A program made the position numbers and the translations under genes. The notes beneath the pieces were generated by a model, which worked only from the letters and a program-made list of their open reading frames with translations, was not told where the DNA came from and did not search any database. Of a DNA stretch of 45,698 nt, positions 41,935 through 45,310 are shown piece after piece (positions within the stretch are counted from its first letter, which is position 1; each line of letters starts with the position of its first letter). Origin of the DNA: Gammaproteobacteria bacterium (GTDB lineage: Bacteria > Pseudomonadota > Gammaproteobacteria > UBA6429 > Thiohalophilaceae); the NCBI GenBank assembly GCA_026197095.1, contig JAPHTF010000026.1:1-45698 (forward strand). Reading direction: 5' to 3'.

Positions 41935-43182
41935 ATGAAAAAGTTGCTTATCATTGGCTATGTCTGGCCTGAACCAAACTCATCCGCGGCAGGCAGTCGG
42001 ATGATACAGCTAATTCACATCTTTCAAAAACAAGATTATTCCGTTACCTATGCATCACCGGCAGTTATTAGTGAACATATGATTAACCTTGAAGATCTTG
42101 GTATAGATAAAGTCTCGATTGAGCTAAATAACAGTAGTTTTGATGACTATGTTAAAAGGTTAAATCCAGATGTTGTTTTATTTGATCGTTTTATGATGGA
42201 AGAACAGTTTTCATGGCGAGTCGAAAAGCAATGCCCCTCCGCATTACGTTTACTTGAAACAGTCGATCTACATTGTTTAAGATATGCTCGTCAACTGGCG
42301 GTGAAAAATGGCAAAGATGCTTTCAATATCACAAATCTTGATTTTATAAATGATATTGCGCTTCGCGAAGTGGCCAGTATATTACGTTGTGATTTAAGTA
42401 TATTAATCTCTGAGTATGAAGTTGACGTTTTAAAGACTATTTATCATGTAAATGAAGAGATATTACTTTATTTACCATTTATGTATGAGGCTATAGATTA
42501 TGATGAAGCTATTAAAAAACGGCCAGCTTTCCCGGAGAGAGAAAATTTTGTCACTATTGGTAATTTTCGACATGAACCCAATTGGGATTCAGTTTTATAT
42601 TTGAAAAATGTAATTTGGCCACGGGTTAAAGCTAAATTAAAACATTCTGAGTTGCATATTTATGGTTCATATCCACCTAAAAAAGCCCAGGAATTAAATA
42701 ATCCAAAGCAAGGGTTTTATGTTAAAGGCTGGGCGGCTAATGTACTTGATACTTTAAGTCAGTATCGAATATGTTTATCTCCGCTACGCTTTGGTGCAGG
42801 AATGAAAGGTAAGCTGGCCGATGCCATGTTAAGTGGCACACCAAGCGTGACGACATCTATTGGGGCAGAATCCATGTTTGCTGAGTTTAACTGGCCTGGA
42901 ATTATTGCTGATGAGCCCTCCGCAATAGCTGAAGCCGCTGTAGATTTATATAATAATCAAAAAAAATGGCAGCAATGTCAACGAAATGGAATTTCAATTG
43001 TTAATAGTGTTTTTTCGAAAAAGAAAAATGAAGAAAAATTTGTTAAAAAGTTAGAAGCGGTTATCACATCGCTTGAAAAAAATCGGCGCAACAATTTTAC
43101 TGGAATGATGTTAAGACATCATACAATGAAAAGCGCTATGTATATGTCTCAATGGATAGAAGAAAAAAACAAATTTAAATAA
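41935..43182 (+). CDS. GT-B fold glycosyltransferase
   Basis: The 415-residue protein starts MKKLLIIGYVWPEPNSSAAG, like the N-terminal Rossmann domain of GT4-type enzymes. The C-terminal half has the sugar-nucleotide region: FVTIGNFRHEPNWDSV, LHIYGSYPPKK, VKGWAANVLDTL, and SPLRFGAGMKGKLADAMLSG TPSV with the usual acidic/Gly pattern. Donor and acceptor are unknown. No other polysaccharide genes are nearby, so this is an isolated gene. The tail after residue 385 is basic. Confidence 0.82.
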   Translation: MKKLLIIGYVWPEPNSSAAGSRMIQLIHIFQKQDYSVTYASPAVISEHMINLEDLGIDKVSIELNNSSFDDYVKRLNPDVVLFDRFMMEEQFSWRVEKQCPSALRLLETVDLHCLRYARQLAVKNGKDAFNITNLDFINDIALREVASILRCDLSILISEYEVDVLKTIYHVNEEILLYLPFMYEAIDYDEAIKKRPAFPERENFVTIGNFRHEPNWDSVLYLKNVIWPRVKAKLKHSELHIYGSYPPKKAQELNNPKQGFYVKGWAANVLDTLSQYRICLSPLRFGAGMKGKLADAMLSGTPSVTTSIGAESMFAEFNWPGIIADEPSAIAEAAVDLYNNQKKWQQCQRNGISIVNSVFSKKKNEEKFVKKLEAVITSLEKNRRNNFTGMMLRHHTMKSAMYMSQWIEEKNKFK

Positions 43183-43207
43183 TGAGTAAATACTAGACGA
43201 GTAGATA

Positions 43208-43544
43208 ATGGCTGAGTTATTAAAAGATATTCAGAATAAAAGGTTAATTACCAAGTTGTCGTCTGAAATACAAAATACTTAGCATGGCTTTAATGTAAAT
43301 AAATTTATTAACATAACTCTTGATAAAGACTGGAAAATTAAAAATTAAAAATTAAAAATTAAAAATTAAGTATGCCGTTTATTTTTTTCGCAAATATCAT
43401 AAAACGAATCGAAAAGTATTCAAGATTTCAGAAAATGACTACAAAGAAGATAAACTTAAAATAACAAAGCGGCATTCATTTCATAAAATATCAAGCCAGC
43501 AGTGCTATCCGGGAAAGCACAGTATTGCCATTATTAGTGATTAA
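43208..43544 (+). pseudogene. Remnant of an AlkC-like DNA alkylation repair gene
   Basis: One frame from ATG 43208 reads MAELLKDIQNKRLITKLSSE, then a TAG at 43280-43282, then HGFNVNKFINITLDKDWKIK up to the heptamer repeat. A second frame then reads YAVYFFRKYHK, KVFKISENDYKEDKLKITK, and HSFHKISSQQCYPGKHSIAI, ending at TAA 43542-43544. The first part resembles the N-terminus and the second the C-terminus of AlkC-type alkylation repair proteins (COG4335), which are about 360 residues; some 250 central codons are missing. The family call is from memory of the motifs. The two pieces meet at the AAAAATT repeat. Confidence 0.65.
43334..43367 (+). repeat. AAAAATT tandem repeat, five copies
   Basis: The first unit lacks one A (AAAATT), then four perfect AAAAATT units follow, ending before AAG. 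Removing four units (28 bp) gives TGG AAA ATT AAG TAT, which joins the two reading frames of the alkC-like remnant exactly. Confidence 0.95.
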
Positions 43545-43559
43545 AATAGTGCTAAGTAC

Positions 43560-44384
43560 TTAACCTAGATAATAATTGTATGTATCTTTAGTTACCGCGA
43601 TATTTTCTAAAATTATCGTTCTAACTTCCTTGAGAGAATGCCCGGATTCTTTAGCAATTTTTTCTGCTATCGAATCAAAATTAAAATCTTTGTTGATTAT
43701 TTGCTCAGCGATTAAATTTCCATATGAAATGCACTTTATATTGATATCATTAGAAGAGGGTTGAGCTAAAGCTCTTTTGAGTAAACTTGATAATTTCCAT
43801 TCGGAAACTAATCCAAGACTTAACTCGCGAAAGGTAATACCTAATATATCTTTTTCAGACTCTTCATGCTTTACACCACTTTTATTTAAGAGGTCAGAAA
43901 TTAATCTTCCAGACTTTCCACTTAAACTCCAAAAAGCTATTTCTCCAATATTGAAGAGCAATGTTGAGATATAAACCATATCGGGATCAGTAAAGTTATA
44001 TAACTCTGCGATTGTCCGAGCCTGTATGGCTGCATGGTATGATTTTATCGTTATAGTGTAGACATGACTGCGTGTTTTCTTATCAACAATGGAATCAAGA
44101 ATTGATAATGTGAGGCAAATCTCTGTTATTTTTTTAAAACCAATCAGTAATACGATGCGACGGATATTTGTAAATTCAGTATTGAAGCGATTGTAGTATG
44201 GACTGTTCGCTATTCTTATCACGCGAGACGTTAATGCTGCATCCTGAACAATCGTGTCTGCAAGTTGTTTGCTGGATGATTTTTCATCCATTGATAAATT
44301 TAATACAGACTGAATGGTCTCATTGAATACCGGTATTGATTGAGTACCAATGTATTTAACCCAGTTTTTAAGATCCGATGCCAT
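43560..44384 (-). CDS. HDOD domain protein
   Basis: HDOD proteins are catalytically inactive relatives of HD phosphohydrolases and act in signalling or regulation. The sequence WVKYIGTQSIPVFNETIQSVL, IVQDAALTSRVIRIANSPYYN, and IRRIVLLIGFKKITEICL is the classic HDOD start; the metal-binding HD pair is absent. No other domain follows in the 274 residues. The frame extends to 44465, but Met28 (44384) gives the usual N-terminus and has an AGG nine bases upstream; the extra 27 residues look like untranslated sequence. Confidence 0.85.
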   Translation of the reverse strand: MASDLKNWVKYIGTQSIPVFNETIQSVLNLSMDEKSSSKQLADTIVQDAALTSRVIRIANSPYYNRFNTEFTNIRRIVLLIGFKKITEICLTLSILDSIVDKKTRSHVYTITIKSYHAAIQARTIAELYNFTDPDMVYISTLLFNIGEIAFWSLSGKSGRLISDLLNKSGVKHEESEKDILGITFRELSLGLVSEWKLSSLLKRALAQPSSNDINIKCISYGNLIAEQIINKDFNFDSIAEKIAKESGHSLKEVRTIILENIAVTKDTYNYYLG

Positions 44385-44509
44385 GTTTTTGTGCCTGCAA
44401 AATATATACTGAAGTTTATGGCGTAATACTGGGGTTAACCATGAGAAGATTGTGAGTGAGATCACAAAGTTACTCTATTAGTGTGTGATTAAAACCACAT
44501 GAGTAAGGG

Positions 44510-45310
44510 TTATTTCTGAATGATATAGATGTCGTAGCGTGTTTTTTTACTTTCCACTTTGTAAGTAGGCACAAGTTCAGACAGGTTTTCAGTACCTTTA
44601 GGGCGCTTAACTACAACGCGTTTTTTTGCAACTTTTAGTGCAATATCCAGTAGTGTTTGCGTGTCTTCATCTTGGCCTAAAAGTGTTTGTAATAATTGCA
44701 TATTTTTTTTAACAGAAGCAGATTTTTTTCTCTCGGGATACATCGGATCTAGATAGATAACATCAGGATAGATAACATCAGGATTTGTTTCTTGTTGTTT
44801 TAAAAGTGCAGTTAAATAATCAATACTGCTTTGTTCGATTAAATTAAATCCCGTATCTAAAATAGATTGAAAATGATCATCTTCTTTTGCGCGATGTATC
44901 GCATCACGTATTAGCTCAACGATAATCGGAGAACGTTCCAGTAATGTAAGCGGGCAGCCTAAACAAGCAAGTACATAAGCATCTTTTGCCAGTCCTGCCG
45001 TTGCATCCAAAACTGATGGTGGTTCACTACCTTGTTTTAAACCAATGGCCTTGGCAATGCTTTGACCTTTTCCTCCGCCGTATTGTTGACGATGAGCTAA
45101 TTCTCCGGAAATAAAGTCAATATGAATAGCTATATTTTTTTTAACGTCTCTGAGTTCGACGAAATTATCCGAGTAGTTAAGGGTTAAAGTGCTATTCGTT
45201 TCTTTGTAAGGATGGCAGGTAAGATGTTTGTCTGCAGCAAAATTTTCAGCTGCCTCTTTTTGGCTTACTGATGTATATGAGACGGTAATGGGCTTATTTG
45301 ATAAATTCAT
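44510..45310 (-). CDS. rsmJ: 16S rRNA m2G1516 methyltransferase RsmJ
   Basis: RsmJ (YhiQ) methylates N2 of G1516 in 16S rRNA with SAM. The 266 residues have the SAM motif SVLDATAGLAKDAYVLACLG (starting near 99), LLERSPIIVELI, and the catalytic-site motif LDPMYPERKKSA (187-198). Just before that motif PDVIY is repeated (177-181, 182-186) through a 15-bp tandem duplication, adding five residues to strand 4. The frame is intact. Confidence 0.92.
   Translation of the reverse strand: MNLSNKPITVSYTSVSQKEAAENFAADKHLTCHPYKETNSTLTLNYSDNFVELRDVKKNIAIHIDFISGELAHRQQYGGGKGQSIAKAIGLKQGSEPPSVLDATAGLAKDAYVLACLGCPLTLLERSPIIVELIRDAIHRAKEDDHFQSILDTGFNLIEQSSIDYLTALLKQQETNPDVIYPDVIYLDPMYPERKKSASVKKNMQLLQTLLGQDEDTQTLLDIALKVAKKRVVVKRPKGTENLSELVPTYKVESKKTRYDIYIIQK
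44755..44784. repeat. 15-bp in-frame tandem duplication inside rsmJ
   Basis: AGATAACATCAGGAT is present twice without mismatch. Lack of divergence suggests a recent event. Confidence 0.95.

Follow-up and report, generated by a model that had tools for sequence, protein, structure and literature searches.

The window, which is the whole stretch of 45,698 nucleotides analyzed here, contains two short coding pieces joined by a run of heptamers between a glycosyltransferase-like gene and an HDOD-domain gene, and the question raised by this locus is whether it represents a working alkylation-repair gene, a gene switched by its repeat, a fault in the assembly, or the residue of a gene that has been lost. 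We favor the last of these, and assign a probability of about 93% to the interpretation that the locus is a decaying alkC pseudogene. In the course that we propose, an internal deletion would have been followed by growth of a slippage-generated tract at the AT-rich scar. The features that bear on this question are listed in Table 1.

Table 1. Features of the alkC remnant locus and its surroundings, and the AlkD-type gene found elsewhere in the same genome. Positions are those of the window unless another contig is named.
Feature	Position	Strand	Evidence
Glycosyltransferase-like gene, upstream neighbor	41935..43182	+	TIGR03087, 64.7 bits, below NCBIfam cut-off of 316.65
N-terminal alkC remnant, ~45 codons, TAG at codon 25	43208..43345	+	Protein match to G007 AlkC residues 1-45
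Perfect period-7 tract, 36 bases, 5.1 copies of AAAATTA, on the deletion scar	43334..43369	+	Tandem Repeats Finder
C-terminal alkC remnant, 58 codons and TAA, decayed, short of the family C-terminus	43368..43544	+	Protein match to G007 AlkC
HDOD-domain gene, right neighbor	43560..44387	-	Pfam, 113.4 bits; cut-off 22.9
rsmJ-like gene	44510..45310	-	NF008012, 205.3 bits, below NCBIfam cut-off of 422
AlkD-type gene, open, 240 codons	Contig C114, L134 1459-2181	-	PF08713, 228.1 bits

The two pieces are related to opposite ends of a single protein. The N-terminal piece starts with the ATG at 43208, and the C-terminal piece is coding from 43368 to 43541, with its TAA stop at 43542-43544. When 58 genomes (the present one counted) were searched with each piece at a cut-off of E 0.01, matches to the C-terminal piece were found in seven and to the N-terminal piece in four, and in both cases the best match beyond the present genome is in G007, a member of the same genus. 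The N-terminal piece aligns with G007 residues 1-45 (E 3.8e-8, 49% identity) and the C-terminal piece matches at E 3.2e-15 with 51% identity, the two hits falling at the opposite ends of one open frame of 364 codons; at the DNA level, none of 300 single-base shuffles of either piece matched G007 alkC as well. Neither piece matches any Pfam family. The first-pass annotation had described two ends of an AlkC-like gene with the centre missing, a claim that stood or fell with the similarity of the pieces to opposite ends of one family, and the alignments bear it out. The G007 gene itself is intact, with 358 codons from its ATG, and its product aligns over residues 2-356 (E 6.4e-72) with 5vhv, which like 5vi0 is a solved structure of AlkC, a HEAT-like-repeat alkylpurine DNA glycosylase. 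Residues 120-210 of the G007 protein match the Pfam DNA_alkylation family (30.5 bits versus a cut-off of 21); an NCBIfam search with the same protein gave no match.

In alignment with this homologue the N-terminal piece stops at residue 45 and the C-terminal piece restarts at residue 288, such that approximately 240 codons are absent, and the HEAT-repeat core of a working AlkC is lacking in that the Pfam-matched region falls within the missing part. Since the tract lies over the junction, the deletion endpoints are not defined at single-base resolution. What remains does not form a single open reading frame, as it is interrupted by TAG and TAA and the pieces start one base apart modulo 3; on the forward strand no open reading frame of at least 40 codons with an ATG, GTG or TTG start is listed within 43208-43544. 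The in-frame TAG had been proposed as a second lesion, and it is indeed present, in a column where five of seven homologues have Tyr and the remaining two His and Trp.

Of seven arrays that Tandem Repeats Finder lists for the window, the tract that joins the pieces scores highest (period 7, 100% matches). Its 36 bases compare with 19 bases for the longest period-7 run obtained when the window was simulated 100 times under a second-order Markov model. It had been described as five heptamers; the perfect period-7 repeat stands, and the count is refined to the 5.1 copies of AAAATTA in Table 1 or, read as AAAAATT, to four whole units (43340-43367) with partial units besides. No other site in the assembly has three consecutive whole units; with one mismatch allowed there is one such site each in G002 and G004 and none in five of the eight genomes of the genus. 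TAA is present in all three frames once there are at least four whole units, and in two frames when there are three, so a tract as long as the present one is incompatible with a working full-length gene. The earlier argument that deletion of four units restores one frame is arithmetically correct given the offset of one base, but it carries little weight because frames agree by chance one time in three and the removal of one unit or of four is equivalent modulo 3.

The decay of the two pieces is uneven. We scored columns that are invariant in five close homologues, and repeated the comparison with all seven homologues and with leave-one-out runs. The C-terminal piece retains 19 of 29 such columns (8 of 13 with all seven homologues); three of its ten broken columns lie at or beyond its TAA, past which the seven aligned homologues continue for 11 to 16 residues, and four reflect alteration at T, both R residues and the first Y of a STRRYY stretch shared by all five close homologues. 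In leave-one-out runs the intact homologues hold 29/29 to 29/31 columns, and the C-terminal piece 19 or 20 of those same columns. The N-terminal piece retains 9 of 11 close-homologue columns and all three of those invariant in all seven; when G007 or G037 is omitted it retains 10 and 11 of 14 columns, respectively, and the omitted intact proteins hold 11/14. Apart from the TAG, there is thus no clear excess of decay in the N-terminal piece, which counts against a simple picture of decay.

Comparison with the relatives places the remnant in its genomic setting. The gene order in the present genome is glycosyltransferase and alkC remnant on the forward strand, followed by the HDOD and rsmJ-like genes on the reverse strand, and in G007 (locus L038) it is glycosyltransferase, alkC and rsmJ, with four bases between the first two and a 19-base overlap of alkC with the convergent rsmJ. 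The remnant and the intact G007 gene thus have the same left neighbor; rsmJ adjoins alkC in G007 and stands beyond the HDOD gene in the present genome. It is this combination, of disabling lesions here and an intact copy beside the same neighbor in a relative, that identifies the locus as a pseudogene. On this view the glycosyltransferase gene would once have been followed on its right by an intact alkC, which lost its function. An internal deletion of about 240 codons would have removed the core of alkC, and slippage during replication of the AT-rich scar would have built up the heptamer tract, which a gene already dead could carry at no added coding cost. Slippage is the mechanism that we infer for the tract, and the order of deletion first and heptamer expansion later is plausible, if unproven.

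The alternative that survives best retains the pseudogene and reverses this order, with the array arising before the deletion, in a gene that the TAG or the array itself had inactivated, and perhaps promoting the deletion. The position of the array on the junction speaks for such a course, as does the consideration that the TAG alone would have released the gene from constraint, and four or more units suffice to put a stop in every frame; the tract could have come after other lesions or itself been one that inactivated the gene. A perfect tract beside decayed flanks nonetheless seems younger than those flanks, though this does not date the deletion; we consider the reversed order unlikely. Considerably less probable is an assembly artefact, in which the low-complexity tract led to a misjoin of reads and the organism possesses an intact alkC. 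In favor of this are the AT-rich, perfect sequence of the tract and the draft state of the assembly (201 contigs, 98.5% complete). Against it, a search of the genome with the whole G007 AlkC returned just two partial matches, both at 43208-43544, and no match to the core elsewhere in the assembly; moreover, the TAG, the premature TAA and the changes at conserved residues all lie outside the tract. Bacteria are well known to switch genes by slippage in simple repeats, and the tract does lie inside former coding sequence, but a phase-variable or otherwise working locus in which the heptamers toggle a product is scarcely credible, since the core is gone, TAA is present in every tract frame, the TAG lies upstream, no open reading frame of 40 codons is listed, and there is no otherwise intact frame for repeat number to switch.

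The pseudogene interpretation raises the further matter of how alkC came to this location and how it was lost. AlkC is patchily distributed in the family: the whole G007 protein finds matches in 6 of 40 genomes, near full-length in five (G007, G059, G033, G026 and G022), and in G026 and G033, which belong to another genus, alkC is flanked by other neighbors. Given this patchiness and these different neighbors, acquisition of alkC at this position may have been followed by its loss. Within the genus, no glycosyltransferase of this kind was matched in G001, G003 or G006, leaving five of the eight genomes comparable. In G004 (L040) the order is glycosyltransferase, HDOD and rsmJ, with an 18-base gap between the glycosyltransferase and HDOD genes, and glycosyltransferase and rsmJ are separated by only 145 bases in G002 (L037) and 167 bases in G005 (L039). 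No trace of alkC beyond that of shuffled sequence was found in the glycosyltransferase-rsmJ spacers (199 of 300 shuffles as good in G002, 124 of 300 in G005), and the first 143 bases past the G004 glycosyltransferase align with window positions 43183-43700 no better than shuffles do (185/300). The spacers of G002 and G005, and that of G004, are nonetheless similar to the spacer between HDOD and rsmJ in the window (0/300 shuffles as good), and this similarity suggests that the HDOD gene has been lost from G002 and G005. Thus alkC and the HDOD gene come and go independently in the interval between glycosyltransferase and rsmJ. A search of plasmid records yielded four matches, every one confined to the query's glycosyltransferase portion.

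Single-gene trees offer a hint as to the age of the gene at this site. The first glycosyltransferase and RsmJ trees were built from five rows each with no outgroup, G020, G022 and G006 RsmJ being left out; a second glycosyltransferase tree included five outgroup loci from beyond the genus (L041, L042, L052, L056 and L069, chosen from 76 loci), of which L069 has one internal stop in the stretch used, and a G002 row without its first 22 residues. In the rooted tree G005 branches first, followed by the pairs G000 and G002 (support 81/80) and G004 and G007 (98/97), and G004 also groups with G007 in the outgroup-free tree (96/97 as the opposite split); the inner forks of the five-row RsmJ tree are weak, except for G000 with G002 (89/91). 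This single-gene topology hints at one of two histories for alkC at this site, namely presence already in the ancestor of G000, G002, G004 and G007, with losses in G002 and G004, or repeated gain.

We note two further features of the neighboring genes. Upstream of the HDOD gene, whose open reading frame has a possible earlier start in a GTG at 44465, lies a CRP-like palindrome, TGTGAGTGAGATCACA (44451-44466); the spacer around it is kept in G002 and G005 despite the absence of the HDOD gene, with the palindrome itself altered. The RsmJ-like protein contains an in-frame 15-base repeat encoding PDVIY (44752-44784, reverse strand) just ahead of a LDPMYP stretch, a probable catalytic motif; the repeat seems expandable, with two copies in the present genome and in G007, one in G002, seven in G004 (L040 7210-8109), and one plus a degenerate copy in G005.

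Loss of alkC may have been buffered by other repair genes. Tag, which removes 3-methyladenine, was found with PF03352 in five of the eight genomes of the genus (G000, G002, G003, G004 and G005), the present one included, and not in G007, the sole one with an intact AlkC; G001 and G006 yielded neither AlkC nor Tag, in a pattern drawn from eight genomes of which some are incomplete (G007 93%, G001 83%). AlkB-type PF13532 is present in two of the eight, the present genome not among them, and the methyltransferase PF01035 in all eight. The AlkD-type protein of the present genome covers positions 3-213 of the 213 in the PF08713 profile, and its residues 95-213 are matched by solved AlkD chains (E 7.8e-7); the same search in the seven other genomes of the genus recovered only the AlkC of G007. 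AlkC and AlkD of B. cereus are both given as active on positively charged alkylpurines in one study (PMC4433238). With an AlkD-type gene and Tag both retained, it is possible that the loss of alkC was tolerated through redundancy, as far as gene content can indicate. More tentatively, and with the odds rather against it, the genome may have been caught midway in an exchange of glycosylases, with which this gene content agrees and in which gain of AlkD, together with Tag, made AlkC dispensable, and the glycosyltransferase-rsmJ interval would be a small hotspot from which alkC and HDOD genes have been lost separately in sister species.

A literature search found no paper title bearing on this alkC locus. 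The locus is an ordinary dead gene with no new biology. It is a clear case of gene loss, recognized because an intact counterpart occupies the syntenic position in a relative, and a simple repeat sits where the deletion took place; it adds a single data point on repair-gene turnover for the genus, and it serves as a caution that a working AlkC should not be annotated here. What the locus shares with the AlkC represented by 5vhv and 5vi0 is that its remnants align to either end of the G007 homologue, itself aligned to 5vhv; it differs in having no core and a broken frame. Bacterial pseudogenes with a slippage-grown simple repeat are a known kind, and the locus shares with these a disabled gene, several lesions, and a pure short tandem repeat free of coding constraint; there is no essential difference, except that here the repeat happens to sit on the deletion scar.
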